A DNA stretch of 64,000 bases, from assembly GCA_946699065.1 (NCBI GenBank), contig CAMPDV010001234.1, positions 61,894 through 125,893 on the forward strand. Direction: 5' to 3'. This DNA is from Loxodes magnus. Taxonomy: Eukaryota > Ciliophora > Karyorelictea > Loxodida > Loxodidae. The first letter of the stretch is position 1, and each line of letters opens with the position of its first letter. The translations under genes and the position numbers were made by a program. Of the stretch, positions 813-60,975 are shown one piece after another. A model generated the notes under the pieces. That model was given only the letters and a program-made list of their open reading frames with translations. It did not search any database and was not told the origin of the DNA.

Positions 813-2735
813 ATGGGAAATTCTTGATCAGATTGTTGCGGAAAAAGAAATCATGAGAAAAATAAAGTTGGTGATTCTCAAGAAAGTGATGATAGAAATA
901 ATTAAAATACAAAAAATGATGATTAAAAGGAAAAAGAAATTGAAGTTAGTAATATTTAAAAAGCAAGAGATAAAAATTAAAAGGAAAAAGAAATTGAAGT
1001 TAGTAATATTTAAAAAGCAAGCGATAAAAATTAAAAGGAAAAAGAAATTGAAGTTAGTAATATTTAAAAAGCAAGCGATAAAAATTAAAAGGAAAAAGAA
1101 ATTGAAGTTAGTAATATTTAAAAAACAAGCGATAAAAATTAAAAGGAAAAAGAAATTGAAGTTAATAATATTTAAAAAACAAGCGATAAAAATTAAAAGG
1201 AAAAAGAAATTGAAGTTAGTAATATTTAAAAAACAAGCGATAAAAATTAAAAGGAAAAAGAAATTGAAGTTAGTAATATTTAAAAAGCAAGCGATAAAAA
1301 TTAAAAGGAAAAAGAAATTGAAGTTAGTAATATTTAAAAAGCAAGCGATAAAAATTAAAAGGAAAAAGAAATTGAAGTTAGTAATATTTAAAAAACAAGC
1401 GATAAAAATTAAAAGGAAAAAGAAATTGAAGTTAGTAATATTTAAAAAACAAGCGATAAAAATTAAAAGGAAAAAGAAATTGAAGTTAATAATATTTAAA
1501 AAACAAGCGATAAAAATTAAAAGGAAAAAGAAATTGAAGTTAATAATATTTAAAAAACAAGCGATAAAAATTAAAAGGAAAAAGAAATTGAAGTTAATAA
1601 TATTTAAAAAGCAAAAAATGATAATTAAAAGGAAAAAGAAATTGAAGTTAGTAATATTTAAAAAACAACTAATAGTATTTAAAACAACCAAGTAAGTTAG
1701 TTCATGCCAAGTCAAATTTAGAAAAATAAAGGATCTTAGTAAAAAATTGGATTTAATAACCTGGGAAATACCTGTTGGATGAATTCTGGATTGTAATGTC
1801 TATTACATACCTATCCTCTAGTCGAACACTTTCTTTCTGGTGAATGATAATAAAATCTTAATACAACCAATAAATTTGGAACTGGAGGTGTTATGACTAG
1901 AGAGTTCGCTAATATTGTTAACTAAACATCGAACAAAACTTAAGGAGCTTTTAGTCCTTCAACTTTTAGATCAAAGTTAATATAATTTGCTCCTTAGTTT
2001 ACTTTAGGAAATCAACATGATTCTCAATAGTTTATCAACTTCTTACTTGATGCTGTACACGAAGATTTGAATGAAATAATAGAAAAACCTTATATTAAAG
2101 GAATACCTAGTAATGATAGACCAGATAAAATAGTTTCGTAAGAATGTTGGGATAAACATTCAAGAAGAAATAAATCTTTCATAGTAGATTTAATGCATGG
2201 ATAATTAAAATAAACTTTAAAATGTGATTAATGTAAGTAAACATAAGTAACTTTCGATCCTTTTTAAATGTTCTGTGTAGAAATTCCTAAGTAGCAGCAA
2301 GTAAATTTATATGATTGTTTCAGACTTTTATAGAGAGAAGAACATTTAGAAGGAATGAACCAATTTTATTGTGAAAAATGCAAAAATCACGTAAATGGGA
2401 CGAAAAATATTAATTTATATAAGGCTCCTGAAATATTCATTGTTTATTTAAAGAGATTCATTCAAAATGGTTACGATATTTAAAAAAATGATACGAGTGT
2501 TAATTATCCATTAGAATTGAATTTGTAAGCATTTTTACCAGAATAGTACTAAGAATCAACAGTTTATGATTTATATGCAGTGGATATTCATTCTGGAACA
2601 GTAAGAGGAGGTCATTACTGAGCTTATGCGAAAGTAGACGGAGAATGGTATGAGTTTAATGATTCACGAGTAGGAAATTGCAGCAATCCTCAAACTTCAA
2701 AAGCTTATGTGCTTTTCTATCAAAAACGAAATTGA
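813..2735 (+). CDS. USP-1: ubiquitin-specific protease with lipidation-type N-terminus and repeat linker
   Basis: A cysteine protease of the USP/UBP family (C19), which removes ubiquitin from proteins. The frame is 640 codons, open from ATG 813 to TGA 2733. The start is Met-Gly-Asn-Ser, then Asp-Cys-Cys-Gly: Gly2 plus nearby cysteines is the pattern of N-myristoylation and palmitoylation, so membrane attachment is inferred. Residues about 38-290 are an 18-residue repeat array. The Cys box (Gly-Asn-Thr-Cys-Trp-Met-Asn-Ser-Gly-Leu-Gln) has its catalytic Cys at codon 321. Two Cys-x2-Cys pairs form the USP finger, and the His box reads Gly-Gly-His-Tyr near the C-terminus. There are three internal TGA codons: codon 5, one where paralogues have Trp (after Phe-Leu-Ser), and one after Gly-Gly-His-Tyr where paralogues have Tyr. 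The catalytic domain and 3' flank are close to those of USP-6. Confidence 0.88.
921..1676 (+). repeat. 54-bp in-frame minisatellite, 14 units (USP-1)
   Basis: The unit recurs every 54 bases (for example the same G at 936, 990, then to 1638, i.e. 13 intervals), so it adds exactly 18 codons per unit to USP-1. Each unit encodes a charged stretch with Lys-Glu-Lys-Glu-Ile-Glu-Val and Lys-Ala-Ser-Asp-Lys-Asn. Units differ only by a few G/A changes, which indicates recent expansion or gene conversion. The array is also open in other frames on both strands; those readings are by-products. Confidence 0.95.
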
Positions 2736-12092: not shown

Positions 12093-13141
12093 TTATTTAC
12101 TACTTTAAATCATTAAATCATTAAAATAACTGTTCGCCTTCTGGCTTAATTGAAGTTTTAAATGTATAAAATCTCCTTTCCTGGACTTCTCTCTTTTAAT
12201 AGTCTGAGCTAAGAATTTTTTTTTTCCGGATTTTCCCATTTCCCGATGGGAAGAATTCCGTCGCTCGCCATTTCAGTTGTTAATAGTTAATATTACTCCA
12301 AATATTCATTCTTATTCTTTTCTATTGGGGAAATTTTCGCCATAGATGTCAAGTGCTGTTGCAAATGTAACATCTTTTCCTTACTCTAGGAAATATCTTT
12401 TCTTGTTTCTCTGTTTCCATTGGAATTCCTTAAAAAGGCTTCTACAGGTTTTCTTCTATTAATTTACATTTGGAATCTAATTTTACTCAGTTTTTCTCGT
12501 CTTGCTCTTGCATTACTCAAATATCATTCTCTAAATTTTAAATTGACTCATAGATTCCGAGTTTAGCTCTTCGGTCTACCATATGGACTTCGTCATCATC
12601 TTCATGGTTTATAGAATCCTGACTTATTGTAAACATTTCTTCCTTCTGGGAGTTTAATTCCTCTTCAAGTTTTTTTATGTTTCTAATAAGTAGATGAATC
12701 AGCTGTTTCATCTATTCAGAGTTCATTTGTTCTATTTCAATGTTGTCTAAATCAAAGGTAATAGGATCTATATTAAATTATCGTACTTTACCTTCTTCGT
12801 TTATTTTTTATTTCTTCGTTATTATTTTTATCGATTCAGTTGAGTGGTCTCTTTTTTCAGTTTTCAATGGAGGCGTTGAGAGCTGTGTCAACTTTTCTGT
12901 TCTGAATTTTTGTCTCAGTACCTGCTTGTCCTTTGATGGAAGAAGTCCGCTTTATTTTAATTTAGCATTTTTTATTAGTTCTTCTAATTTATTTTGTTGT
13001 TCTGGTTATTTCTATTAAGAAGAGCGTTAAGTTGAAGAAGACGTGGTGAGAATATTTGCTTCTGGTTTTCTCTCCTGTTCTGAGGAGATGGTAAAAAAAT
13101 CCTTCTTGAAGCCAGCCATTTTATATTATTATTTACTACTT
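12093..13141 (-). mobile_element. Gag-only retroelement G1 with 13-bp target-site duplication
   Basis: A 1023-bp insert (12106-13128) between two 13-base direct repeats, 12093-12105 and 13129-13141. Its single frame (12118-13119) fills it almost completely: 9 bases lie before ATG and 12 after the stop. No polymerase is present, so it must be moved in trans. Confidence 0.75.
12118..13119 (-). CDS. Gag-like zinc-knuckle protein of element G1
   Basis: 333 codons in one frame, ATG at 13119 to TGA at 12120-12118. The start Met-Ala-Gly-Phe-Lys-Lys-Asp-Phe-Phe-Thr matches the starts of G2 (Met-Val-Glu-Gly-Phe-Lys-Lys) and G3 (Met-Leu-Glu-Gly). The middle is acidic and coiled-coil-like, followed by Pro-Met-Glu-Thr-Glu, which recurs in the other gags, then a zinc knuckle Cys-Tyr-Ile-Cys-x4-His-x4. 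The last ligand is Phe instead of Cys. Three internal TGA codons occur; the one just before the knuckle His aligns with a TGG in element G5. It probably binds element RNA, by analogy with Gag or LINE ORF1 proteins. Confidence 0.65.
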
Positions 13142-13215: not shown

Positions 13216-14376
13216 ATGGGTACAGATTGTTGTACATCAAGAGGTAAAGAAGGTGGAAAAGTAAGTAGTAATCAAGATAATTTAAAAGCAAGTGATGATG
13301 ATAAAAAAAGCAAAGAAAATAAGTCTCAGCAAAAAAAACCCTAATAATCTTTGTAAAAGATTAGATTTGCAAATTTATAAAACACCTGTTGGATGAATTC
13401 TGGGTTATAATGTCTTTTGCATACTGTTCCTCTAGTATAATATTATTTAAATGATTTTAAAGAAATTAATCTTAATATGTCCAATAAATTTGGAACTGGA
13501 GGAGAATTAACTAGAGAATTCGTTAATATTATAACAGAAACAGCAAAAAATAATCAAAAAGAATTTAAGCCATATACCTTTAGGTAAATATTAATAAAAT
13601 TTGCTCCTTAATTTAGAGAAGGAAAATAACATGACTCTTAATAATTTGTCAACTATTTTCTTGATGCTTTACATGAAGACTTAAATAAAATCACAGAAAA
13701 ACTTTATATAGAAGGAAAACCAAGCGATGGTAGATCAGATGAAGAAGTATCATTAGAATGTTGGAATAGATACTTAAAAAGAAACGATTCTAAGATAGTA
13801 GAATTAATGCATGGATAATTTAAATCTACTTTAAAGTGTGCTATATGTGGCTCCGAATAAATCATTTTTGATCCATTTTAATAATTTTGTGTTGAAATTC
13901 CTTAAAATGAAAAAAATCAGGCAGAAAAGAGTTAAATAACTTTAAATGATTGTTTTGAGCTCTATTAGAAAGAAGAAAAACTAGAAGGATAGAATTAGTT
14001 TAAATGCAAAAAATGTGATAAAAATGTAGATGGATCCAAGAAACTTAGTCTTTATAAGATACCGGAAATCTTTATAATATATTTAAAAAGATTTAAAGAA
14101 ATCGACCAAACTATATAAAAAAATGATTTGAATGTAGACTGTCCATTGATGTTAGATCTAACTTAGTTCTTACCAAATAATTATTAAGAATCAACAATAT
14201 ATGACTTGTATGCAGTGAATATTCATAAAGGAAGTGTAGAAGGAGGACATTACTTCGCACACGCAAAAGAAGGAGATTAGTGGTACGAATTTAACGACTC
14301 TTTTGTATGTTAATGCGATAATAAATAAGTTTAGAATGCATATGCAGTTTTTTATAGAAGAAGATAGAAGTAATGA
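13216..14376 (+). CDS. USP-2: short ubiquitin-specific protease with Met-Gly ... Cys-Cys start
   Basis: 386 codons from ATG 13216 to TGA 14374, with no internal TGA, which makes it the cleanest copy for checking the code. It begins Met-Gly-Thr-Asp-Cys-Cys, a strong candidate for myristoylation and palmitoylation. A short Lys/Gln-rich linker leads to the Cys box (catalytic Cys codon 58; the usual Gly before Asn-Thr-Cys is Gln). His-Asp-Ser-Gln-Gln-Phe follows, then the two Cys-x2-Cys pairs of the USP finger, Tyr-Leu-Lys-Arg-Phe, the His box (Gly-Gly-His-Tyr-Phe-Ala-His-Ala) and Trp-Tyr-Glu-Phe-Asn-Asp-Ser. All catalytic elements are present. It lies just downstream of element G1, which points away from it. 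Confidence 0.93.
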
Positions 14377-16430: not shown

Positions 16431-16745
16431 TTTAATTTATGGTATCATTGGAAGAATTTAGCCTTTTATATGTTTTACTGAGAGTCTTTTTTCAATATTA
16501 CTCTGGTTTAGTCTTTTCCTTTTGTTGATTGAAAATATAATCTTATTAAAGCCAATAAATATGGAATTGGTAGTGCTTTTACAAGAGACCTCGCTAATAT
16601 CTCAAAATAAATGCAAAAAACATATCACAAGTCCCAGATTCAAGGAGATTTTGGTACTTAATTTACAAAATAGCAATAACATGATTGTCAAAAGTTTATC
16701 GTCTTTATGCTTGATAACTGCATAAAGATTTAAATAAAAGAATAT
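16430..16745 (+). pseudogene. USP relic, highly diverged
   Basis: One frame retains a shadow of the USP domain: Asn-Lys-Tyr-Gly-Ile-Gly, Thr-Arg-Asp-Leu-Ala-Asn-Ile, Phe-Thr, then Gln-His-Asp-Cys-Gln-Lys-Phe and Phe-Met-Leu-Asp. These align with the intact Asn-Lys-Phe-Gly-Thr-Gly, Thr-Arg-Glu-Phe-Ala-Asn-Ile and Gln-His-Asp-Ser-Gln-Gln-Phe. The Cys box upstream is scrambled and nothing of the finger or His box follows. It is the oldest-looking member of the cluster and has the same orientation as the others. Confidence 0.6.
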
Positions 16746-20813: not shown

Positions 20814-22025
20814 ATGGGATTATGTTTGAAATAATAAAAAGATATTCGTGAAGATAAAACCAGTTAAAAAAAACCAAAAAGTAATAATTTTAAGACAAAA
20901 AACGATGCAAAAAGCATAAATTTAAAATAATCTGGACTAGTTAAAGTAAATAAGTAAAAAGAAATATCAAATAGAAATAAATCTCATTAGAATGATAAAA
21001 TTCGAGAGTACCCAATAAAATTAAAAAATCTAGGAAATACTTGCTGGATGAATGCTGGATTACAATGTATTTTAAATACAACTCCTCTCGTATAATATTT
21101 TAATTCTGACTATCAGGAAAGTAATCTTAATAAAACAAATAAATTTGGAACTGGAGGTGTTCTAACTAAAGAATTCGTAAACATTTTATAAAAAACATCA
21201 AATAAGACTCATGGAGTTTATAATCCTAAAAGATTTAGATAAAAATTAACACAGTTTGCGCCTTAATTTACAGAAGGAAACTAGCATGACTCTTAATAGT
21301 TTATAAACTTTTTCCTTGATGCTCTACACGAAGATTTGAATGAGATAAAAGAAAAATCTTATATTAAAGGAATTCCAAGTGCAGGTAGACCAGATGAAAT
21401 AGTTTCGTAAGAATGTTGGGATAAACATTTAAAAAGAAATAAATCTTTTATAGTAGATCTAATGCATGGACAATTAAAATAAACTTTAAAATGTGAGAAA
21501 TGCTAGTTGACTTAAGTAACTTTCGATCCTTTTCAAATGCTCTGTGTTGAAATTCCTAAAGAAAGTAAAAATTAAAAATAGAGACACCAAGTAAACTTAT
21601 ACGATTGTTTCAGATTTGTATAAAGAGAAGAATAATTATAAAGAATGAATCAGTTTTATTGCGAAGTATGCAAAAAACATGTAAATGGAACTAAAAATAT
21701 TAACTTATATAAGGTTCCATAAATATTCATTGTTTATATTAAGAGATTCATTTAAAATGGCTACAATATTGAAAAAAATGATATGAGTATTGAATATCCT
21801 TTAGAATTGAAATTATAAAAATTTTTGCCTTAAAATTACGATTAATCTACAGATTATGATTTATATGCTGTTAATATCCATACTGGAACTGTAAGAGGAG
21901 GCCATTATTACGCTTATGCAAAATTAGACGAAGAATGGTACAAATTCAATGATTCCCGCGTAGGAAAATGTAAAAATGTTCAAAGTTCAAATGCTTACGT
22001 GCTTTTCTATCAAAAACATAGTTGA
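20814..22025 (+). CDS. USP-3: ubiquitin-specific protease, intact
   Basis: 403 codons from ATG 20814 to TGA 22023, with no internal TGA. Starts Met-Gly-Leu-Cys, again a lipidation-type start, then a basic, Ser/Asn-rich linker of about 60 residues. The catalytic Cys is codon 77 (Gly-Asn-Thr-Cys-Trp-Met-Asn-Ala-Gly-Leu-Gln-Cys). Finger Cys-x2-Cys pairs, Tyr-Ile-Lys-Arg-Phe, the His box (Gly-Gly-His-Tyr-Tyr-Ala-Tyr-Ala) and Glu-Glu-Trp-Tyr are present. All catalytic elements look functional. It is convergent with the LINE remnant whose stop is at 22118. Confidence 0.93.
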
Positions 22026-28195: not shown

Positions 28196-30676
28196 ATGTA
28201 TTCAGGAAAAATTTATTAAGGATATAAAGCTAAAAGTATTTAGAATAAAAAATAGTAAAAGTTGCTCTCATAAAGGATAACAAGTACGTAACTATTACCA
28301 GAAATATTAGATATGAAGTGAAAAAAATTGCAAGGAATAAGAGATAAGTTATTACCACAATTACTTGAAATAAGAGATAAGTCGTTATAACAATTACCTG
28401 AAATAAGAGATAGGTCGTTACAACAATTACCTGAAATAAGACATTAGTCGTAATAACAAAAGAAAGCTAATTTTAAAAAGTAGGTTAACAAAAATATTTA
28501 AGAAGAGATAAAAGAAGAGATAAAAGAAGAGTAAATAGAACAATTTTGTGATGCAAAATAAAATATAGAGCAATTATATAAATGAAATTACAGTCTTCAT
28601 AGTAAGGAATATAGTAATGATACTTAGAATTTTATTTCACATTCTTTACCTCAAAGAAATTCAAATTAATTTTTAAATTTTTCTGATTAATATCTGAAAA
28701 ACTTAGATAATCAATTGATTAAATTTTAACAGACAATAGAAAAATAAGAATATAGTGAGAAAAGCTAAATCAATAAAAAACAAGCATAATTGTTAAAAAG
28801 CATATAAGATTTAAGCAATAATTAAAAAAGCTCAAGATCGGCATAATAAGAACTTTATAATATTTATATAAGCCAAGTTCCAGAAAAATCATAAAACAAG
28901 TTTACTTAGAAATTTTTAAACTCTTTATAAACTAATAGATAGCCTTAGCAACACTATTAATAAATAAATAACTTGAAATAAAAAAATAAAAAATAAGCAT
29001 AATTTTAGTCGATTCCAAAAAAATAAAAAGAAAATGATGCATAAATCGGAAAACAAAAAGAGATTGAATCAAATCCTAGTTTGACAAATAAATATTCTTA
29101 AAGTAAATAAGTATTAAAGGAATAATAAAAACTCTTAAGCCAATAAGAGTAAAAATAATAAAAAGCGACATAATCTTAATACAAGCCAAAAGGAAAGAAT
29201 GATAATTTACAAGTTAAGAAATAGAATGAATTTGATTTATAAGGAATAAATAATACTAAAAGCAAAGTTTAAAATAAAAAGGAATAAAGCTTATAAAATA
29301 AAAATGATAACATTAACATAGTAAAAAGTGAATAAGAAATTATTGATACTAATACAAATTTTATAGAATAAAAAGCATTACAGAGTTATAATTTAACAGA
29401 AGAAAATATTAAAGTCGATATAACATAACAGTAAAACACAAAAAATAGTTTAATAGAAAATTAATAAAATCATCAAGTAGAATAATAGTTCTGTTAAGTA
29501 AATAAAGAGAAAGAGGCAAATCACTTGAAATAAGAATTAACTGAAGATTAGGATAAACAAATAATTATTAAAGAAGAGATAGCAAACTAAAATGAATAGC
29601 AAAAGTAGTCTAGCCACATAAATAAAAAAATAAAATAAGATAATGAAAAAATTATTATAAACTTAAGTTTGAAAGGAATGGAAAATCTAGGAAATACTTG
29701 CTGAATGAACTCAGGATTGTAATGTCTTTTACATACTACTCCTCTCGTATAATATTTTCTTAATGACTTTCAAGAAAATAATATAAACCCAGATAATAAA
29801 TAAGGAACTGGAGGAGTAATAACTAGAGAATTTGCTAATATTGTTAGAGAAACATAAGAAAATGACCAAAAGCCTTTTAATCCTTCAACTTTTAGGTAAA
29901 AATTAGTATAATTTGCTCCTTAATTTACTTTATGAAATCAACATGACTCTTAATAGTTTATTAACTTTTTACTTGATGCTTTACATGAAGATTTAAATAA
30001 AATTACAACAAAACCTTATATAGAAGAAATATCAAGTAATGGTAGACCAGATGAAGAGATATCGCAAGAATGTTGGGAGAGATATTTAAAGAGAAACGAT
30101 TCTTTTATAGTTGAGCTAATGCATGGATAATTTAAGTCTAATTTAAAATGTATTAAATGTAGCTATGAGTCAGTTATTTTTGACCCGTTCTAATTATTCT
30201 GTATGGAAATTCCTAAAAGTGATTATTAATAAAGTAAAATTCAAACATCTCTCTATGATTGCTTTAAAAATTTATAATAAGAAGAATAATTGAATGGATA
30301 GAACTAATTTTACTGCAATAAGTGTAAAACTCATGTGGATGGAAGCAAAAAAGTGGATTTATATAAAGTACCTGAAATTTTTATTATTTATTTGAAAAGA
30401 TTCATTTGAAATGGAAACTAAATTTCAAAAAATGAAGTTAATGTTGATTATCCTGAAATCCTTAATTTGTCAGAGTTTTTGCCAGAAAACTACAAAGAGT
30501 CAACATCGTATAAATTATATGCAGTGAACATTCATTCAGGAAGTTCAAAAGGAGGACATTACTATGCATATGCAAAAGTGGGAGAAGAGTGGTACGAGTT
30601 CAACGACTCTTTCGTAAACAAAAATGCTAGCTTTCAAAGTTCGAATGCATATGCTCTATATTATCAAAGAGCTTGA
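28196..30676 (+). CDS. USP-4: ubiquitin-specific protease with long Gln/Lys-rich N-terminus
   Basis: 826 codons from ATG 28196 to TGA 30674. The start (Met-Tyr-Ser-Gly-Lys-Ile) resembles that of USP-5. Residues about 45-90 hold four copies of an 11-residue repeat; residues 90-490 are a Gln/Lys/Asn/Glu-rich low-complexity linker. The USP domain follows, with catalytic Cys at codon 502, the finger, and His box Gly-Gly-His-Tyr-Tyr-Ala-Tyr-Ala. There are five internal TGA codons (42, 130, 503, 580, 738). Codon 503 directly follows the catalytic Cys, where four paralogues have Trp; 580 falls at a Gly position and 738 at a Gln position. If TGA is not Trp, the protein would lack the whole catalytic domain. 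Confidence 0.82.
28332..28460 (+). repeat. 33-bp in-frame repeat, about four units (USP-4)
   Basis: Codes for Pro-Glu-Ile-Arg-Asp-Lys-Ser-Leu-Gln-Gln-Leu, repeated with small changes. It is a leucine-containing, probably helical tandem repeat near the N-terminus of USP-4 and unrelated to the arrays in USP-1 and USP-5. Confidence 0.8.
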
Positions 30677-32142: not shown

Positions 32143-34250
32143 ATGGAAAATCCTTCAAATAAAAATAAGCTAAAATAAGTCAGCTAGATAGGAAATATAG
32201 TTACAAAGAAAAAAAGAGAAGAGATAAAAGAAAAAGCAGTTATTAATAAAGATATAATGAAGAAAATAAAATGCTATAGAGAATTGTAAATTAGTCAAAA
32301 ATAACACCAAATAAAAATACATTAAGATTGAATTGGATAATTATAAGAAAAATAGAAATTCATTTACGAAGTAATAGTAAAATAAGCAAAAAACATAATT
32401 GATTAAAAAATGAAAGATAAAATTAGTTAATAAAATAGTGATGACTTGTAAAATAAATTTTATAGTTGTAGAATAAAAGTGAGAGTTGGAATTTAAAGGA
32501 GAATTAAACATATTCTATATAGGAATAATTGAGTAAGATAAAGTTAAAAGAGAAATGACTAGAAATAGAAACAAGTTTTAAGCTTAATATTTCAGATTAA
32601 AGTAGTAACTGGAAAAAAAGAAAGTTAGTTGGGATGTAATTAGCATAATTGAACTAGATTAACATGCTAAATTTAATGGAAAATAGGGTTAAATCAATGA
32701 TGAAGATTAAAATGAAGAGAGATAATAAAATAGTTATTGAAATAATATAGATGAAAATGTTAAGTTAGAGATATAGACCCTCAATAATCAATGAGAAAAA
32801 ATAAGTATAAAAATTCTGAAATAAAAAGAGAAAAGAAGGGAAATAAAAAGTAGCTCAAGAAAATTCCCAATAAGTAAATTAAAAAAGGATACAAACCGCT
32901 AAAATTTTAATTAAAGAAAGGAGGATGAAAAAACTTAGATAGACTAGAAGAAATATTTTTTTCTAATAAAATGAATAAATCAAATCGAATGAAGAGAACA
33001 GCTAGGATAATAAGAAAATCTAAGTTAACTTGAAGGAAAAGATGCTTACATATAAGGGAAAAATCCTTTAAATTTATAGATTGAAACTTCAAAATATTAA
33101 AAATAAAATAAATATATTTAAAATGAAAACTGTAAATAGCCAGCTGAGATAGAATATAATAATAATGAAAATTATGAACCTAAAAATCAATCAAATAGTG
33201 AAATTGAGGATAAAATGGATAAAAACGGATCAATAATTCTAACTTATAGAAAGTAAAATAGGAATATTAAAATTTGGAAACACAAGCTGATGGAATCTGG
33301 GTTATAATGACTATTACATACAAAACCTACTATCAAGTATTTTATCTCTTGAGAATGGAAATAAAATCTTAATGTAATAATTAATTCAGAAACGGATGTT
33401 TCTAATTACTGAGTTTGCCAATATCGTTTGAGAAATTAATACTACAGAAGAAATCATTTCTCCAGATAAGTTTAGGGAAATTCTTTTACAATTTGCTTCC
33501 TAGTTACAAAATTTTCTACACGACTCTTAAAAATTAATCAATTTCTTTCTGGATGCTTTGCGTGAAGATTTAAATAAAATTAAAAAAAAATTAAAGAATG
33601 AAAGTAAAGTGATGGTAGACCAGATGAAGAGGTTACACAAGAATTTTGTTGTAGATATTTAAAGAGAAACGATTCTAAAATAGTAAAGCTAATGCATGGT
33701 AAGTTTAAGTCTATTTTAAGATGTGAAAAATGTAAATAAAAATCAGTAATTTTCGACCATTCTAACTAATTTGTGTTGAGATACCTAAAGTAAACACTAG
33801 TAATTTTTACCAAAATTAGAATGCTAAGATATAACTTTGAGAATATTCCAACTTTTTAGAAAAAAAAGAAATTTTATAGGGACAGAATTAATTTTACTGC
33901 AATAAGCATAAAACGAACGTGAATGAAACTAAAAAAATATAAATGTACAAAGAACCTGAAATTTTTATTGCTTATTTAAAAAATTCAATCATAATGGGTA
34001 TTCAATTGAAAAAAAACTATACCGATGCAGATCATCCTAAAGATCTCGAATTTCCGAAGTTTTTATCAAAAACTACAAGGAATCAACAACATATAGACTT
34101 GATCTGCTAACAATTATTCAGGAAGAGCAAGAGGTGGACATAACTATGCTTATGCAAAAATTTGAGAAGAATATGTCTCAGAAAAGAGCAAGAAAACAAA
34201 TTTTAAAAGTTCAAATGAATATCTCTAAATTATGAAAGAACTGGAACGAA
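32143..34250 (+). pseudogene. USP pseudogene with catalytic Cys to Ser change
   Basis: Starts with a Met-Glu-Asn-Pro-Ser reading and a long charged linker broken by TGA codons and frame changes. The Cys box at about 33272 reads Gly-Asn-Thr-Ser instead of Gly-Asn-Thr-Cys and is followed by a frameshift. Further on, Glu-Phe-Ala-Asn-Ile-Val, His-Asp-Ser, Phe-Leu-Asp-Ala-Leu-Arg-Glu-Asp, Lys-Arg-Asn-Asp-Ser and a garbled His-box region can still be aligned with USP-4, in more than one frame. Clearly inactive. Confidence 0.8.
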
Positions 34251-39221: not shown

Positions 39222-42200
39222 ATGTAATCAGGATAAAAAATTCAAAGTGGAAAGAATAAAAAAAATTCTAGCTTTTTATCATAGAGTCAAACAAAAACAT
39301 CGAAATATAAAATACAACAAAACAACGATTAATTTAAAAAATAGCCGGAAGTTTATTAAAAATAGAGATTTCATTCAAAAGAATCAGAGAAAAAGAATGA
39401 AATGGAAATTAAAATGTAATCGTTTTCAAGAGGAGTAAAAATGCAGACTTGATAGTAATAATTTATTTAGGATGAAATCTAAGAGAGAAAGAAAATCTCT
39501 TCTTTTAATATTAGCTAATCTCCATAAATTAAAAATTCATAAAGTAATTAAGATTAAACCAAAGAAGATTAAGATAAATAATAGAAATTATTTTATAAAA
39601 AATAAAATAAAAGTGAATAACAGAAAAATCGAAGTTAAGAATAGAAATATCACAATAATAAGAAGTAAACTATTTTTTCAAAAGAAGAAAGACAATTGAA
39701 AGAGAGTTTAAAAAGACCATGATATAACATTCAACGAATTTAAAATTTCTATCAAAAAAAAGATATAGAAATAAGATAAAAAACATCCTCTTTAACAACA
39801 AATCAAAATAATTCAATTATAAATAAGAATACTTAAAATAATGAAGAAGTAAAATATTAGACTAAGTAAAAATATCAAAAAGAAATGCTGATTTAAGATA
39901 AATTTCAAGAAAAAAGAAAAAAAAATCCACATTCTTAATAATAAAAGGAAGTAGATCCGAAATAAAATCAAACGAGTAAAAATTCTTAGCATCATAAAGA
40001 AAGTGAGATAAGCTCTTAGGATAAAAAAATAACTATATAAAGATAATAAAAATAACCTTAATCTTTATAAAAGACAAATGGAAAAACTGAAACATAAACT
40101 TAATAATAAAAGGAAGTTGATCCGAAATAAAATCAAACGAGTAAAAATTCTTAGCATCATAAAGAAAGTGAGATAAGCTCATAGGATAAAAAAATAACTA
40201 TATAAAGATAATAAAAATAACCTTAATCTTTATAAAAGACAAATGGAAAAAATGAAACATAAACTTAATAATAAAAGGAAGTTGATCCGAAATAAAATCA
40301 AACGAGTAAAAATTCTTAGCATCATAAAGAAAGTGAGATAAGCTCTTAGGATAAAAAAATAACTATATAAAGATAATAAAAATAACCTTAATCTTTATAA
40401 AAGACAAATGGAAAAACTGAAACATAAACTTAATAATAAAAGGAAGTTGATCCGAAATAAAATTAAACGAGTAAAAATTCTTAGCATCATAAAGAAAGTG
40501 AGATAAGCTCTTAGGATAAAAAAATAACTATATAAAGATAATAAAAATAACCTTAATCTTTATAAAAGACAAATGGAAAAACTGAAACATAAACTTAATA
40601 ATAAAAGGAAGTTGATCCGAAATAAAATCAAACGAGTAAAAATTCTTAGCATCATAAAGAAAGTGAGATAAGCTCATAGGATAAAAAAATAACTATATAA
40701 AGATAATAAAAATAACCTTAATCTTTATAAAAGACAAATGGAAAAACTGAAACATAAACTTAATAATAAAAGGAAGTTGATCCGAAATAAAATCAAACGA
40801 GTAAAAATTCTTAGCATCATAAAGAAAGTGAGATAAGCTCTTAGGATAAAGACATAACTATATAAAGATAATAAAAATAACCTTAATCTTTATAAAAGAC
40901 AAATGGAAAAACTGAAACATAAACTTAATAATAAAAGGAAGTTGATCCGAAATAAAATCAAACGAGTAAAAATTCTTAGCATCATAAAGAAAGTGAGATA
41001 AGCTCATAGGATAAAAAAATAACTATATAAAGATAATAAAAATAACCTTAATCTTTATAAAAGACAAATGGAAAAACTGAAACATAAACTTAATAATAAA
41101 AGGAAGTTGATCCGAAATAAAATCAAACGAGTAAAAATTCTTAGCATCATAAAGAAAGTGAGATAAGCTCATAGGATAAAAAAATAACTATATAAAGATA
41201 ATAAAAATAACCTTAATCTTTATAAAAGACAAATGGAAAAACTGAAACATAAACTTAATAATAAAAGGAAGTTGATCCGAAATAAAATTAAACGAGTAAA
41301 AATTCTTAGCATCATAAAGAAAGTGAGATAAGCTCATAGGATAAAAAAATAACTATATAAAGATAATAAAAATAACCTTAATCTTTATAAAAGACAAATG
41401 GAAAAACTGAAACATAAACTTAATAATAAAAGGAAGTTGATCCGAAATAAAATCAAACGAGTAAAAATTCTTAGCATCATAAAGAAAGTGAGATAAGCTC
41501 TTAGGATAAAGACATAACTATATAAAGATAATAAAAATAACCTTAATCTTTATAAAAGACAAATGGAAAAACTGAAACATATAATCTATAGTTGACTTAG
41601 TAAGATAAATCTTTAAAAGATATAAATATTATAGTTGAAAATGAAAAAGAATAAAATTCTTTTATATATTTAATTAAAAAAGGGATGAAAAATCTAGGAA
41701 ATACTTGCTGAATGAACTCAGGATTGTAATGTCTTTTACACACTGCTCCTCTCGTATAATATTTTCTTTCTGAAAAATGGAATAATGAACTTAATACAAA
41801 CAATAAATTTGGAACTGGAGGAGTAATAACTAGAGAATTTGCAAATATTGCTAAAGAAACTTAAAAAGATTTTCAAATAGCTTTTAGTCCTTCAGCTTTT
41901 AGGTAAAAATTATTACTATTCGCTCCTTAATTTACTTTATGAAATCAACATGACTCTTAATAGTTTATTAACTTTTTACTTGATGCTTTACATGAAGATT
42001 TAAATAGAATCATCATAAAACCTTATATAGAAGGAATACCAAGTAATGGTAGACCAGATATAGAGGTATAGTAAGAATGTTGGGAACGATATTTAAAGAG
42101 AAACGATTCTTTTATAGTTGAGCTAATGCATGGATAATTTAAATCTACTTTAAAATGTTCTAAATGTAACTATAAATCAGTTATTTTTGACCCGTTCTAA

Positions 42201-42827
42201 TTATTCTGTGTTGAAATTCCTAAAGATAATTATTATAAAAGTAAAATTCAAACATCTCTCTATGATTGCTTTAAAAATTTATAATAAGAAGAATAATTGA
42301 ATGGATAAAATTAGTTTTTTTGCTCTAAATGTAAAACTCATGTGGATGGAAGCAAAAAAATAGATTTATATAAAGTACCTGAAATTTTTATTATTTATTT
42401 GAAAAGATTCATTTAAAATGGAAACGAAATTTCAAAAAATGAAGTTAATGTTGATTATCCTGAAATCCTTAATTTGTCAGAGTTTTTGCCAGAAAACTAC
42501 TAAGGATCAACATCGTATAAATTATATGCAGTGAACATTCATTCAGGAAGTTCAAGAGGAGGACATTACTATGCATATGCAAAAGTAGGAGAAGAGTGAT
42601 ACGAGTTCAACGACTCTTTCGTAAACAAAAATGCCAGATTTCATAGTCCGAATGCATATGCTCTATATTATCAAAGAACTTGCTAAATTTTATAAGGAGA
42701 AACTTAAATTAAATTAAAATAGTAACTTTAAAACGTGATTTTATTTCTTAGGAAGTATAGTCTTTATATTTTTTATAAAATTATTTTTTTGTATTAATAA
42801 ACAATAGTATTTTTATTTCCTTTCTGA
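39222..42827 (+). CDS. USP-5: giant ubiquitin-specific protease with 10 x 55-residue repeats
   Basis: One frame of 1201 codons from ATG 39222 (Met-Gln-Ser-Gly-Gln-Lys, like USP-4) through a Gln/Lys/Asn-rich N-terminus, ten 55-residue repeats (codons about 238-788) and a USP domain. Catalytic Cys is codon 829; finger and His box (Gly-Gly-His-Tyr-Tyr-Ala-Tyr-Ala) follow. Internal TGA codons are 77, 167, 830 (Trp after the catalytic Cys), 907 (a Gly position, shared with USP-4) and 1126 (Trp of Glu-Glu-Trp-Tyr-Glu-Phe). The stop used by USP-4 has changed from TGA to TGC (about 42682), so the frame runs about 47 codons further to TGA 42825. If TAA can also end translation here, the protein would stop at 42685. 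No frameshift disturbs the 3.6 kb frame. Confidence 0.82.
39934..41583 (+). repeat. 165-bp tandem array, 10 units (USP-5)
   Basis: Ten direct units of exactly 165 bases (for example the same base at 39934, 40099, 40264), each 55 codons, Gln/Lys/Ser-rich with Glu-Val-Asp-Pro-Lys. Units differ by few bases. Variants are shared between non-neighbouring units: aagacataac in units 6 and 10, and aaaattaaacga in units 4 and 9. This indicates unequal exchange or gene conversion within the array. Confidence 0.95.
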
Positions 42828-48559: not shown

Positions 48560-49860
48560 TTCAAATATGGATGTCTGCTGTGGTCATAAAAATTACTAGG
48601 TAATCGATTTTTGTGCATACTACATTGCGAGTTATCTTGCACTAGATGCACCACTGGGAAGGTGCATAAGCACAGAAGAGACAAGACTAACTGAGGGTTC
48701 TCTCTAGCAGTATGAAAGTTTGACTGTGGGCTTACTGATTACTTAATTAATAACTCTTATTTGAATCCTATTCAAGAAGAATGGAACATTTGATTCAAAA
48801 TTAAAGAATAATCTTTAATAAGTTGATTTCCCATTTGGAGAAAATGACATGACTCATTAAACAGCTAGAATGAAAACAATAAGTATGAGAACATTTTTTC
48901 TTAATATTAATATTGAAAGAGTAGCGAACCAACGAGGTACTTGAGCTCTATAATAATATTCATTTATATATTTAAATAAAAAAATAGAATTAAAAAATAT
49001 AAAAATTACTTAAAATTAAGAGGAAATATTGATAACCTATAAAAGAGATTTCAGACTTAAAAAAATAAATAGCTAAAAATACTAGAATTAGTATAAGAAA
49101 AAATGTATCAAAATAAGTAAAATAACAATACAATTTTAAAATTAAATTTTATATTTAGTTGATATTTAGTTATAAAATAAAAAATAATAGCTAAAAAAAT
49201 ATAGAAGGAAAAAAGAATTTGAATAAAGAAAATGATGTAATAATTAATAACTAGATTATTAAATTCTAAAATATAATAGAAATAAATATTATATTAAAAT
49301 ATAAATTAAAATTCTTATAAAGGAATTAAATTAATTAAAATAAACAGATTTAAAAATTAATTATCAAAAGGAGATATAACAGCTGATATTGAAGAATCAC
49401 ACTAAAAGCTTATATCACAGATCTAAATTAAAAAAATAAGATAAAGCTATAAACTAAAGCGAAGATACGACATAGAAAACAACTAATCAAAAAAGGAAAT
49501 TAACAAAATTGGAAATGTGAGAATTAAATATACATCTTAAACAAATAGAAGAGAGACTAAACTAATTTACCTTATATATGCAATATTCTATTAAACTAAA
49601 ACAATGAAGACTATACGGATATTAAGAAGGTATAAATTAAGTTTACATAAATAAACAGAGAAATATTTTAAGATGTTGATATTGTAAGAGGAAACGAATC
49701 CTGATATAGAAATGTTAATATTTTAGTAAAATCAAAGAGTAGAGGTAAATAGACTTTGGAGTAAGATGAGTCAAATATATTGCATGCATAGAAGGTAAGG
49801 TTTATAGAAGAATATTATATCAAGAAATAGAATTACATGAATCAATAGTGGGTAAAAATA
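48560..49860. repeat. Segmental duplication, partner 57460-58690
   Basis: Nearly identical along 1.2 kb: a family A copy (48568-48960; partner deleted internally), its flank, and the first part of a D-family gene. The high identity makes it one of the youngest events in the window. Confidence 0.8.
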
Positions 49861-50125
49861 ATACACTAATGAGCAAAATGATAAAGGAGCTACACAACTC
49901 AAAACTCTAAAAGAGCTGAAAGATTACTGACTAAAGGGGAAAGAAGAAGAATAAGATGAAGAGTAAGAATAGAAAGAAAGGTATCAACAATTTGGTAGGA
50001 ACAAGTATTTTTGAATAATCTCTTCAGATAGACTTAAAATAATTATGATCTTATTAAAGTAGGAGAAATATTATCTATTATTATCATAAAAGAGTTGACA
50101 TTGAGGAACTATGTGCTCTATAATA
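49380..50125 (+). pseudogene. D-family copy 2
   Basis: Shares Leu-Lys-Gln-Ile-Glu-Glu-Arg and a following TGA with 24029-24838, then drifts through frame changes. The C-terminal region (about 50030-50090) is still alignable, and it ends at a shared palindromic motif (about 50098-50125). Probably inactive. Confidence 0.45.
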
Positions 50126-50521
50126 TAAATTATTTTAAAAAGTAAATTTGAATAAAATCTAGTTAAGAAATGGAAGTTGTTCTGGAGTTGGAAGGATTAA
50201 GAAATTGAAATGACTATAAAGATTGTATTTCAATAATATTTGATAGGAAATGTCTGCATTATAATTAATCATGCTACTGAATACTGGATTAAAAAAAGTA
50301 AAAACCTATCTAGGAGCAGTATAGATATTTAATCTGTAGAGATAATTTAAAATAAGCCTTAACTTTAGCATCTTACTAATAAACATCTTCACATTAAGTT
50401 TTATACTTCTTAGTAATTAAATTTTCATTTTATGCTTAGTTCTAAAAATTAATTAAACTAAAACTTAAATTTACCTAAGTTTAAGTGTTTAAGCTTTTAA
50501 AGGTTTATTTTATTAATAATA

Positions 50522-52633
50522 ATGGATTTAACTTGTCCTATTTGCTAAACCAAATACAGCTATAAGCGAATTCCTTTGCAACTATAGTGTAAACATTTAT
50601 CTTGCTATACTTGCTTAAAATCTCAGTAAAAGAATCTTCTTTGCAAAGTTTGTGGAAAGGAAGATCTAAGAGATGTAGAAGAACTAGAAGAGCGAATTGA
50701 TTTAATATAGATAGAATAATAGAAAATATGCTAAATTCATAAGAAAGAAATTTAAATGGCTTGTAGCATACATTAATAAAAGATATGCGCTAACTGTTGA
50801 TTCGAAACCCATAAATAATGTAAAGAAGTAATGTAATTGGAATAATTCGAAGAAATATAAAAGAAACTAAAACTATAAAAAATAGACTAGCTAACAGAAG
50901 ATAAAGCGATATTATTAAATAGCATCTAACATTTATAGAAAATGGAAGCATTAACTGAATAAATGCTAAGAGAACAATAATAGAAATATTCAAGCTTTTG
51001 TATTACTATAGTTAATAAATTAATAGAAGAAACGAAAAAATAATATAAATAATAAAAGCAAAAACAACAAGAAATTATAAAATAAATAGTTACTTAAAGA
51101 GAAACTTTACAAAAGATGATAGTTAAAATAAACTAAATTAACCAAATATAAAGCATCAACATCTAGGAACTAGATAACTAAATATAAAATATTAAAGCAT
51201 AAATTAAAAGCTGTTCTAACCTAAAATTAATAACTTAGAAATATATTCAAGAAACTTTGGAGTTTAAAAGTATTTAAACTGATGTAATTGTCAACTAACT
51301 ATAAGAGTATCAAAAATAGCAAAATCAGATTAAAAATTTAAAAGTTTTTAATTAGTTATAAAGTTATAAAGAAGAGAAGCATGAAGACGAAATAAACAAA
51401 AAAATTCAAAAGTATCAAGTTTAGTAAAAGCATTACATAGAGGAAGAACTCAAATAATAAGATTTAATAGACGAGGAAAATTTACAAATAGGTAGAAAAA
51501 ATGAGATAGATAAGTAAAATCTTTAGAAGTAAAATAGAAAGTAAAACTTAAACCAATTTATTAATTAAGAAGCGATTTAAGGATATGATAAATAATCAAT
51601 GAAAATAAGTTTGAAAGGATTAAGGGACCTAGGGAACACAGATTGGATGAATGCTGGATTGTAGTGTCTTTTACATACTACTCCTCTCGTATAATATTTT
51701 CTTTCTGATTAATGGTAAATGGAACTTAATAAAAACAATAAATTTGCAACTGGAGGTGTTATGACTAAAGAATTCGCTAATATTGTTTACTAAGCATCGA
51801 ACTAAACTTAAGGAGCTTTTAGTCCTTCTACTTTTAGATCAAAATTAATATAATTCGCTCCTTAATTTACTTTAGGAAATCAACATGACTCTTAATAATT
51901 TATTAACTTTTTACTTGATGCTTTACATGAAGATTTAAATAAAGTCACAACAAAACCTTATATAGAAGGAAAACCAAGTGATGGTAGACCAGATTTTATA
52001 GTTTCATAAGAATGTTGGGATAAACATTTAAGAAGAAATAAATCTTTTATAGTAGATTTAATGCATGGATAATTAAAATAAACTTTATAATGTATTTATT
52101 GCTGTTAAACGTAAGTAACTTTCGATCCTTTTTAAATGTTCTGTGTTGAAATTCCCAAGTAAGAAACAGGAAGAAAAAATTAGCAATAAAGATAGCAAAT
52201 AAACTTATATGATTGCTTCAGATTTTAATAGAGAGAAGAACATTTGGAAGGAATGAACCAGTTTTATTGTAAAAACTGCTAAAGGCATGCAAATGGAACG
52301 AAAATTATTAACTTATATAAGGCTCCTGAAATATTAATTGTTTATTTAAAGAGATTCATTTAAAATGGCTATAACTTCATAAAAAATGATATGAGTGTTA
52401 ATTATCCATTAGAATTGAATTTATAAGAATTTTTGCCAAAATATTACAATAATTCTACTTAATATGATCTATATGCAGTGAATATTCATTCTGGAACAGT
52501 AGAAGAAGGTCATTACTATGCTTATGCGAAAGTAGACGAAGAATGGTATGAGTTTGAAGATTCAAGTGTAAAAAGATGTAGCAATCCTCAAAGTTAAAAT
52601 GCTTATGTGCTTTTCTATAAAGAACGAAATTGA
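50522..52633 (+). CDS. USP-6: TRIM-type RING/B-box/coiled-coil fused to a catalytically dead USP
   Basis: 703 codons from ATG 50522 to TGA 52631. Residues 5-44 form a complete C3HC4 RING (Cys5, Cys8, Cys23, His25, Cys28, Cys31, Cys41, Cys44). Residues 70-100 form a B-box (Cys70, His73, Cys81, Cys89, Cys92, His97, Cys100), with one TGA at codon 93. Residues about 105-355 are Gln/Lys/Glu-rich and coiled-coil-like. The USP domain starts at about 362, but the catalytic Cys is Asp (codon 374, GAT: Gly-Asn-Thr-Asp-Trp-Met-Asn). The finger and His box (Glu-Gly-His-Tyr-Tyr-Ala-Tyr-Ala) remain. An E3 ligase with a ubiquitin-binding pseudo-protease tail is inferred. The catalytic half and 3' flank match USP-1, so a TRIM-like 5' end was probably joined to a USP-1-like 3' end. 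Confidence 0.9.
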
Positions 52634-55757: not shown

Positions 55758-56716
55758 GAAGCCATTCACTAACTTGTCAAAGGTAGAGATCAAAATTGAA
55801 GGAGCTGAGCAAGCTACGACCTAACACTAGTAGTAAGCAAACCTTCAAACCTTCCTTTAAGCACCCTTAAACTTAAATAGATGCGACCGCTGAAAAACCT
55901 AAGAAAAAAATACCAGAGGTCAGGGAATTCTAAACGGCTAAATCGGAGTAACAAGAACAATCTGAAGTAGTAGCAATGATAATTACTGAACTTAACCAGG
56001 AGGTGGGAAGGCTCAAAGTTCAAACTGAATATAATATGAAACTATATAACAACGGGCTGGCTCTAAACTAGAAACTCCTGTCTGCTTTGAGAAGGAAGTC
56101 CAGGGACTTAGAGATGAAGTGAAAGACCTTAGATAACAGCTAACAGAGCATCTCAGACAAAGCCTATGAACAGCTATAACAGCGAATAATAGCTCTTGAA
56201 ATGATGGAACTAGAAGAGAATGGACATTCCTTACCTAACCCTCCTTCTCCCGAAAAACACCAGTAAGCCAAGTCTCAGAAATAATGCTACCTATGTGGCA
56301 GTGCTTGGCATCTCTATAGACAATGCAAAACTTTTGTTGAAAAATAGAGGAACTACTGGAGAATTTAAACCGATCAAGAGCAGTAAGCGATTAAGAAATA
56401 AAGACAAAAGATACAAAATTTAAGAAGAATGCAAAATCGCCTCTACTGTGATCTTAGCGGGAGAATGAACAAGAGGAGAATTTTACCCTTAGACAGATTT
56501 TACCTCATATCAGAAAACTATGTCTCCATGCGAAGCATACTGTTAGACGACCCAAGTCACTTTGATTATTATAACCGGAAGGAAAACCGATAACCCGCCT
56601 AAAAGCAGCAACTGGCATAAAAAGGTTTTTTAACAAACATTCCTTACTATTTAATTATTTAATTTAAATAGAAGTGTTTAGCTTTTGATCTCAATTCTAA
56701 TTTTATTATTATATGA
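55758..56716 (+). mobile_element. Gag-like element G5
   Basis: GC-richer than its surroundings. The N-terminal part is basic and Pro/Ser-rich, then coiled-coil-like (Val-Ala-Met-Ile-Ile-Thr-Glu-Leu). The knuckle at 56285-56326 is perfect (Cys-Tyr-Leu-Cys-x3-Trp-His-x4-Cys). The knuckle frame ends at TGA 56714. At least one frameshift lies near 56100. No ATG is seen at the left end, so it may be 5'-truncated. Confidence 0.65.
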
Positions 56717-57464: not shown

Positions 57465-57800
57465 GATGGATATCGGTTGCGGTCAGGAGAACCAATAGGT
57501 CATCTATTTTAGTGCATAATGCGTTGCGAGTAATCTTGCACTAGATACAACCACGAAAAAGAGTGCAGAAACTCTGACTTAATTACTAACTCTTATTTGA
57601 ATCCTATTCAAGAAGAATGGAACATTTTATTAAAAATTAAAGAATAATCTTTAATAAGTTGATTCCCCATTTGGAGAAAATAACATGACTCATTAAACAG
57701 CTAGAATGAAAACAATAAGTATGAGAACATTTTTTCTTAATATTAATATTGAAAGAGTAGCACACTAACCAGATGCTACGCATTCTTTATAATAATATTC
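57465..57800 (+). mobile_element. Family A repeat, internally deleted copy
   Basis: Same ends as 48568-48960 but lacks about 60 bases in the middle. Ends with the shared motif at 57755-57790. Confidence 0.7.
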
Positions 57801-58199
57801 ATTTATATATTTAAATAGAAAAAAGAATTAAAAAATATAAAAATTACTTAAAATTAAGAGGAAATACTGATAACCTATGAAAGAGATTTCAGACTTAAAA
57901 AAATAAATAGCTAAAAATACTAGAATTAGTATAAGAAAAAATGTATCAAAATAAGTAAAATAACAATACAATTTTAAAATTAAATTTTATATTTAGTTGA
58001 TATTTAGTTATAAAATAAAAAATAATAGCTAAAAAAATATAGAAGGAAAAAAGAATTTGAATAAAGAAAATGATGTAATAATTAATAACTAGATTATTAA
58101 ATTCTAAAATATAATAGAAATAAATATTATATTAAAATATAAATTAAAATTCTTATAAAGGAATTAAATTAATTAAAATAAACAGATTTAAAAATTAAT

Positions 58200-58690
58200 T
58201 ATCAAAAGGAGATATAACAGCTGATATTGAAGAATCACACTAAAAGCTTATATCACAGATCTAAATTAAAATAAGATAAAACTATAGACTAAAGCGAAGA
58301 TATGACATAGAAAACAACTAATTAAAAAAGGAAATTAACCACAAATCGGAAATGTGAGAAGTAAATATACATCTTAAACAAACAGAAGAGAGACTAATTT
58401 AACTTATATATGCAATATTCTATTAGACTAAAACAATGAAGACTATACGGATATTAAGAAGGTATAAATTAAGTTTACATAAATAAACAGAGAAATATTT
58501 TAAGATGTTGATATTGTAAGAGGAAACGAATCTTGATAAAAAAGTGTTAATATTTTAGTAAAATCAAAGAGTAGAGGTAAATAGACTTTGGAGTAAGATG
58601 AGTCGAATATATTATATGCATAGAAGAATATTGCATCAAGAAATAGAATTAAATGAATCAATAGCAGGTAAAAATAATATAAATAAATAA
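58200..58690 (+). pseudogene. D-family copy 3
   Basis: Nearly the same text as 49380-49860 with small deletions. It ends just before the shared motif at 58707. Confidence 0.45.
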
Positions 58691-60571: not shown

Positions 60572-60975
60572 ATAGGATAAATAATATCTAAATGCTGCGG
60601 ATGAATTTTTAATAAAAAGAAAAATGCTGATGAAGCTTAAGAAAGAAGCTAGAGTAATCTTTAAAGACAAGTAATATTTTTTAAAATACAAGAAAGCGAG
60701 CCTCTACTAAGAGAAAAAGCGAATGATAAGATATCAATGTGAAAAATTGGATTTAATAACCTAGGAAATACCTGTTGGAGGAATTCTGGATTGTAATGTC
60801 TTTTACACACATCTCCTTTATTTAAATATTTTCTTTCTGAGGATTGAAAATAAAATCTTAATGCAAACAATAAATTTGGAACTGAAGGTGCTATGACTAA
60901 AGAATTCGCTATATTGTAAACGAAATATCGAAAAATACACAAGGATTTTTTGATCCTTCAACTTTTAGATCAAAG
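60572..60975 (+). pseudogene. USP pseudogene, cut off by gag element G8
   Basis: The start codon has become ATA, but Gly and a downstream Cys-Cys-Gly are kept as in USP-1. The Cys box is Gly-Asn-Thr-Cys-Trp-Arg-Asn-Ser. A TGA sits at the same Trp position as in USP-1. A one-base deletion follows Lys-Glu-Phe-Ala. Homology stops abruptly at about 60975, where the 3' end of G8 copy c begins. Confidence 0.8.

Follow-up and report, generated by a model that had tools for sequence, protein, structure and literature searches.

The window analysed here is a stretch of 64,000 nucleotides of the Loxodes magnus genome (C1234:61894-125893), which comprises 705,730,643 bases in 7843 contigs. The macronuclear assembly of this karyorelict ciliate is described as 706 Mbp (PMC11441545). 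At positions 50522-52633 of the forward strand, the window holds a TRIM-like/pseudo-USP gene whose 703 codons (50522-52630) are followed by a TGA stop. The predicted protein consists of a RING, a B-box, long predicted helices and a USP domain, in this order, and the catalytic cysteine of the USP is replaced. Five USPs that keep the cysteine lie in the same window. The features are collected in Table 1.

Table 1. Positions in the window of the TRIM-like/pseudo-USP gene, its parts and the USPs with an intact cysteine.
Feature	Position	Strand	Remarks
USP with Cys, no RING/B-box	1749..2732	+	
USP with Cys, no RING/B-box	13372..14364	+	
USP with Cys, no RING/B-box	21021..22016	+	
USP with Cys, no RING/B-box	29666..30670	+	
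USP with Cys, no RING/B-box	41679..42674	+	
TRIM-like/pseudo-USP gene	50522..52633	+	703 codons + TGA stop
RING, residues 5-44, eight ligands	50534..50653	+	Ligands, Pfam, profile
B-box, residues 70-100, eight ligands	50729..50821	+	Ligands, Pfam, profile
In-frame TGA, codon 93, very probably read as Trp	50798..50800	+	TGA in 10/10 copies; Phe in four paralogues; TGA/Trp columns
Long predicted helices, residues 106-230 and 237-327 (coiled-coil position)	50837..51502	+	AlphaFold model, block pLDDT about 43-82
USP (UCH) domain, residues 366-699	51617..52618	+	
Nucleophile codon GAT (Asp374) replacing Cys	51641..51643	+	
His664, catalytic His position, kept	52511..52513	+	
Asp680, third triad position, kept	52559..52561	+	
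Terminal TGA, taken as stop	52631..52633	+	

Reading frame and genetic code

With TAA and TAG read as glutamine, the gene is open from its ATG to the terminal TGA, needs no intron and contains a single internal TGA, at codon 93. This reading confirmed the coordinates and the single frame with one TGA that had been given in the initial annotation. In this genome TAA and TAG encode glutamine and TGA behaves as tryptophan within genes. Karyorelicts, including L. magnus, use NCBI table 27, in which UGA is tryptophan when it is far enough from the poly-A tail (PMC11441545). The TGA is present at codon 93 in all ten copies of the fusion, and four diverged paralogues (L039, L049, L050 and L051) carry phenylalanine at this position. 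An aromatic residue suits the position, and a stop would split the B-box. Moreover, the aligned USPs (38 rows, the window fusion being entered twice and without a TGA in its USP) hold 53 TGA codons, and 33 of these fall into three columns where the other rows are tryptophan in 78 of 81 cells. The remaining 20 are spread over eleven columns and may be missense changes or damage. Since TGA usage fits table 27, the paralogues have phenylalanine and TGA aligns with tryptophan in sister USPs, codon 93 is very probably read as tryptophan. A plain stop at this codon was rejected because of its presence in every copy, the phenylalanine of the paralogues and the TGA/Trp columns.

The openness of the linker by itself is not significant (no TGA in 262 codons, 3.0 expected, P 0.053). 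The join of the N-terminal part to the USP is beyond chance, as ten copies each run in frame into a USP. An assembly join between the two parts, which the initial annotation had named as one way in which the fusion could prove false, is very unlikely: nine copies, spread over three contigs, share the identical junction, and the tenth copy has a shorter linker.

Elsewhere in the window, three open frames in higher-GC stretches of the minus strand (near 13119, 19000 and 47900) share a start like M-x-G-F-K-K-x-F, and a Pfam scan of two of them gave no match above cut-off. An open frame with a CCHC zinc-knuckle-like motif and no Pfam match lies at 56201-56716.

Zinc-binding domains, helices and USP domain

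The window protein has the two N-terminal features of TRIM/RBCC proteins, a RING with eight zinc ligands (C5, C8, C23, H25, C28, C31, C41, C44) and, after it, a B-box with a likewise complete set (C70, H73, C81, H84, C89, C92, H97, C100). The last B-box ligand, usually a histidine, is a cysteine here. All sixteen ligands are invariant across the window protein and L049, L050 and L051, three genes whose first 130 residues show 42-48% identity to it. The Pfam search that the initial annotation had proposed detected both domains in the window protein with scores short of the curated thresholds (zf-RING_5, 22.3 of 27.9 bits; zf-B_box, 17.1 of 24.1) and matched the USP at 1.1e-58 (UCH). The RING passes in L051 (27.4 of 27.3 bits) and is not detected in L050 at E 0.1; zf-RING_2 and zf-B_box match all four 130-residue N-terminal pieces at E 0.5 or better. 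Combined into a profile, these N-termini matched RNF4 (1.5e-7, RING only), TRIM21 (1.1e-5) and TRIM72 (2.7e-5), the two TRIM matches spanning RING plus B-box. In a single-chain AlphaFold model, helices are predicted at residues 106-327, where they occupy the position of the TRIM coiled coil. The RING/B-box fold is modelled without confidence (pLDDT below 50), and only the query row covers that part of the alignment.

The USP domain is nearest by sequence to USP15/USP4, and its model reaches a TM of 0.90 against USP15 by target length. The fold and the catalytic His and Asp are present, the latter two (H664, D680) at conserved columns, and the catalytic Cys is absent; the protein was not classed as an active USP. 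As the initial annotation had it, the nucleophile codon is GAT, and its central claim, a RING/B-box/helical part fused to a USP without nucleophile, is borne out by the ligands, the Pfam matches, this codon and the ten copies. Of the 648 cells that nine fusions have at 72 positions conserved in other USPs, 627 are kept, and the nucleophile accounts for nine of the 21 losses. Without this column the fusions keep 627 of 639 cells, compared with 2009 of 2031 in USPs that stand alone (solo USPs), each left out in turn. Apart from the nucleophile, the dead domain is, at the sequence level, almost as conserved as active USPs.

Copies, relatives and gene conversion

A genome search with the N-terminal part gave 85 matches. 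The best ten (E 5.9e-141 or better) hardly differ from the query, in the case of the tenth over residues 1-284 only, and all ten continue in frame into a USP; the USP frame of L035 later breaks. Seven copies lie on contig C606, two on C2533 and one in the window, and the start-to-start spacing on C606 and C2533 is 25-27 kb, save one gap of 46 kb. The catalytic Cys is absent from every copy: five have Asp (GAT; L029, L032, L033, L034, L036) and five Gly (GGC; L030, L031, L035, L037, L038). Zinc ligands are intact in nine copies. In L038 the B-box ligand His73 is replaced by Tyr and the USP is joined after a shorter linker, so that, together with the broken L035, two of the ten copies appear damaged or altered. 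Due to its broken USP frame, L035 was left out of dN/dS, trees and the conserved-cell count above. The chimera L038 was kept in the pooled dN/dS and left out of the divergence comparison (L029-L037). The window fusion gene is flanked by a duplication of 93.7% identity (48741-49863 and 57577-58679).

Near-complete USPs without a RING/B-box N-terminus, from the window and loci L009-L028, keep the Cys in 28 of 28 cases. To enter this set, a match had to span 300 or more query residues; smaller pieces, including the decayed window stretches and the L025 piece, were dropped, and the window fusion, which once entered as a row with Asp, was discounted. TRIM-like sequence was looked for in L009-L028 and none was found. 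Several of the solo USPs are near-duplicates of one another on different contigs, and the coding sequences of L031 and L037 are identical, so that neither the ten losses nor the 28 intact cases count independent events. L053, which adjoins the array, also keeps the Cys; L025 holds a USP fragment with Tyr at the nucleophile. The presence of Cys-bearing USPs in the same cluster, as stated by the initial annotation, is supported by the five USPs of the window. Two of these follow repeats in the same frame: 14.6 copies of a 54-bp tandem repeat (880-1668, within 880-2732) and ten 165-bp repeats of 55 residues (39934-41581, 98% alike, within 39885-42674). USP copies that are decayed or incomplete, interrupted by several in-frame TGA or by frame breaks, lie at 33287-34240, 16500-16718 and 60749-60916.

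Genome-wide, 228 exact DNA matches, not each checked as USP, were counted for the motif GNT-Cys-[Trp/Phe/Tyr or other TDN codon]-Met, and none for the control. Allowing Asp, Gly, Ser, Asn, Arg or His instead of Cys gave 23 matches against 20 for the control; among the 23, GNT[D/G]WM was read only in the ten fusion copies. The control count suggests that the other 13 are chance matches; two were examined as candidates for further dead USPs, and both looked VWA-type-like by eye. A low Cys-box similarity between fusion and solo USPs was dropped as an argument, the compared windows beginning before the solo sequences start.

Judged by coordinates, a USP follows on the same strand, no more than 6 kb downstream, for at least 20 of the 85 TRIM-like matches, counted from the USPs among the matches listed. 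Ten of these pairs are the dead branch, and seven of the other ten have the Cys: L049, L050 and, via the motif matches listed, C606:68420, C111:377650, C22:322780, C606:93988 and C606:17271. L049 encodes a RING, a B-box, a helical region, a MYND-like finger (by eye) and a USP with Cys, and L050 has a similar domain order, also with Cys. In L051, RING and B-box are followed by a long helical region and a USP with Cys, the gene end lying outside the sequence read. All three are continuous frames without a TGA at position 93. In L039 (C606:66456) the USP is out of frame with the TRIM part as read, which implies an intron or damage between them. Another locus, L052 (C188:270800-274000), has a RING/B-box/helical frame followed by ubiquitin-like repeats by eye, with no USP in the sequence read. 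Since L049, L050 and L051 are fusions with an intact Cys, the dead form is one branch of a family. As these more distant genes of the same genome keep the Cys, the fusion of ligase and protease probably came first, and one amplified branch then lost the protease.

The copies L029-L037 differ from one another by 0-0.7% over 50022-51421 and by 0-0.5% just downstream. Further upstream (49022-50021) the values are 0.1-4.4%, and the highest, 2.9-12.8%, belong to the USP (51422-52621, peak at 52022-52221). Locally, fusion USPs can be closer to solo than to fusion USPs (L038/L053, 96 versus 34; L033/window copy at 1752, 94 versus 91). We read this pattern, together with the local matches, as the footprint of gene conversion. 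Despite this footprint, none of the ten copies has the Cys. A tree of the full USP domain unites eight of the nine fusions in a single clade (support 1.0); the ninth, L038, clusters with USPs of the window. In a tree of the first half of the domain, the Asp copies group with solo USPs (0.989) and not with the Gly copies; given this grouping, Asp and Gly may represent separate losses of the Cys.

In comparison with L039, the nearest diverged paralogue, dN/dS is 0.31 in the RING/B-box, 0.66 in the helical part and 0.45 in both together. The RING/B-box is under constraint at this level, which may predate the array. Among the nine near-identical copies (without L035), pN/pS is 1.07 in the N-terminal half, on few changes, and 0.46 in the USP half. 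Between the USP halves, dS goes up to 0.24 (0.67 with L038), with nine of ten frames still open. Gene conversion from active donors may account for the constraint on the USP half, which therefore is not taken as proof of function.

Proposed function and known systems

The explanation that we favour, in our judgement an even call, is that the gene encodes one polypeptide, a putative TRIM-like ubiquitin ligase whose C-terminal recognition domain would be a pseudo-USP that holds ubiquitin uncut. The helices would dimerise the protein and the RING would recruit an E2. In place of the usual TRIM recognition domain, the pseudo-USP might hold ubiquitin or an already ubiquitinated protein without cleavage, and the RING would then build on the ubiquitin so held. 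Loss of the nucleophile would have turned an ancestral ligase/protease chain, of the kind still found in the paralogues, into a ligase unable to undo its own work, and gene conversion in the array would keep the ligase half uniform and vary the ubiquitin-binding half. Ubiquitin binding by a USP with Asp or Gly at the nucleophile is putative, and the favoured explanation assumes that it persists. According to a review, ubiquitin can be sequestered by DUBs that carry Ala instead of Cys, and Asp occupies the nucleophile position in USP39 (PMC10919355). Several observations argue against the ubiquitin-holding ligase: the N-terminal half shows no constraint among the near-identical copies (pN/pS 1.07, on few changes), L035 and L038 are damaged or altered, RING and B-box stay under the Pfam cut-offs with a fold modelled at pLDDT below 50, and the constraint on the USP half (0.46) may come from active donors. 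Tentatively, a wider scenario can be proposed, in which ligase and deubiquitinase on a single chain would make up a class of proteins in a karyorelict ciliate. The loss of one residue would have turned one branch of this class into a ubiquitin-reading ligase, which was then amplified in an array, where conversion would vary the ubiquitin-binding half and leave the ligase half constant; the diversification of recognition domains in vertebrate TRIM proteins would be comparable.

Potentially, but rather doubtfully, the pseudo-USP might instead be a decoy that competes for substrates or partners of active USPs or ties up ubiquitin, the RING being secondary or degrading decoy-bound targets. The many active relatives suggested by the 228 motif matches (not each checked), the strong similarity of the dead domain to active USPs and the dominant-negative effect that inactive DUBs can have via ubiquitin sequestration (PMC10919355) would fit such a role. 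However, a decoy leaves the constant RING/B-box fusion of the dead form unexplained, as no dead solo USP occurs among the 28 near-complete ones.

It is unlikely that the array amplified an already functionless gene, with conversion from active USPs keeping the dead copies tidy and no working protein being made. The nine frames that stay open despite a USP-half dS of up to 0.24 (0.67 with L038), the intact zinc ligands of nine copies and the RING/B-box dN/dS of 0.31 at the deeper, possibly pre-array level argue against decay. The pN/pS of 1.07 in the N-terminal half, the broken frame of L035, the missing B-box ligand of L038, the broken USP relatives in the window (33287-34240), the L025 fragment with Tyr and the repeat-rich assembly (PMC11441545) are what decay would produce.

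Two separate genes, which the initial annotation had also considered, are improbable on the basis of the genetic code and the paralogues. A short RING protein would end at codon 93 and be followed by a downstream USP, read through by chance; TGA is the sole stop codon of the code and could still end a protein there, and the openness of the linker is by itself weak (P 0.053). Against this stand the 33 of 53 TGA codons in aligned USPs that correspond to Trp, the use of table 27 in L. magnus (PMC11441545), the TGA at position 93 of all ten copies and the Phe of four paralogues, a B-box that would be cut, and the continuous L049, L050 and L051 without a TGA at 93. That the domain still cuts ubiquitin through Asp or another cysteine, as proposed for USP39 and shown for USP52, is hardly credible: His664 and Asp680 are kept, and activity was reported for USP39 with Asp there and for USP52 through non-conserved cysteines (PMC10919355), but Gly in half of the copies leaves no branch-wide chemistry at this position.

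The components are of known kinds. A profile of five fusions gave 912 USP matches, and no RING or B-box Pfam accession was recognised among the 120 listed. In a protein database search, which favours USP words, none of 11 USP matches had a RING or B-box accession, and residues 1-300 of L049 gave no match among 2666 candidates. Neither the RING/B-box/helices plus USP architecture nor ubiquitin work on Loxodes came up among the papers listed by searches of the open-access literature. Normally, the opposing actions of TRIM ligases and USP proteases reside in different proteins. One genome with TRIM-like/USP chains that keep the protease and a branch without nucleophile represents a natural experiment on the use of a deubiquitinase domain, able or unable to cut, to a ligase, and the two kinds of fusion provide matched sequences for testing pseudo-deubiquitinases as ubiquitin readers.

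TRIM/RBCC ligases such as TRIM21 and TRIM72 share with the fusion the RING, the B-box, the long helices and a following C-terminal domain. This domain is SPRY, NHL or the like in TRIM proteins and a USP in the fusion, which also differs in its last B-box ligand (Cys) and whose ligase activity is putative. USP15, USP4 and USP11 are the closest solved USP domains by sequence and fold; the front half of USP15 is DUSP-UBL, whereas the fusion has a RING/B-box there and has lost the nucleophile. CYLD also combines a B-box and a USP in one chain, but its B-box lies inside the USP, its Cys is intact and it has no RING, while in the fusion the B-box precedes the USP, together with a RING and without the Cys. 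A20 unites ligase and deubiquitinase activities in one chain, with an active OTU protease and A20-type zinc fingers instead of a USP without nucleophile. USP39/Sad1 has Asp at the catalytic Cys position (PMC10919355), like this copy and four others. However, USP39 lacks the catalytic His, its front half is a zinc finger and its role is in splicing; the fusion keeps His664 and therefore was not filed as USP39, its front half is RING/B-box and half of its copies have Gly. L049, L050 and L051 have the identical domain order and all sixteen zinc ligands, but their chains are longer, contain additional regions ahead of or within the USP, and retain the Cys.
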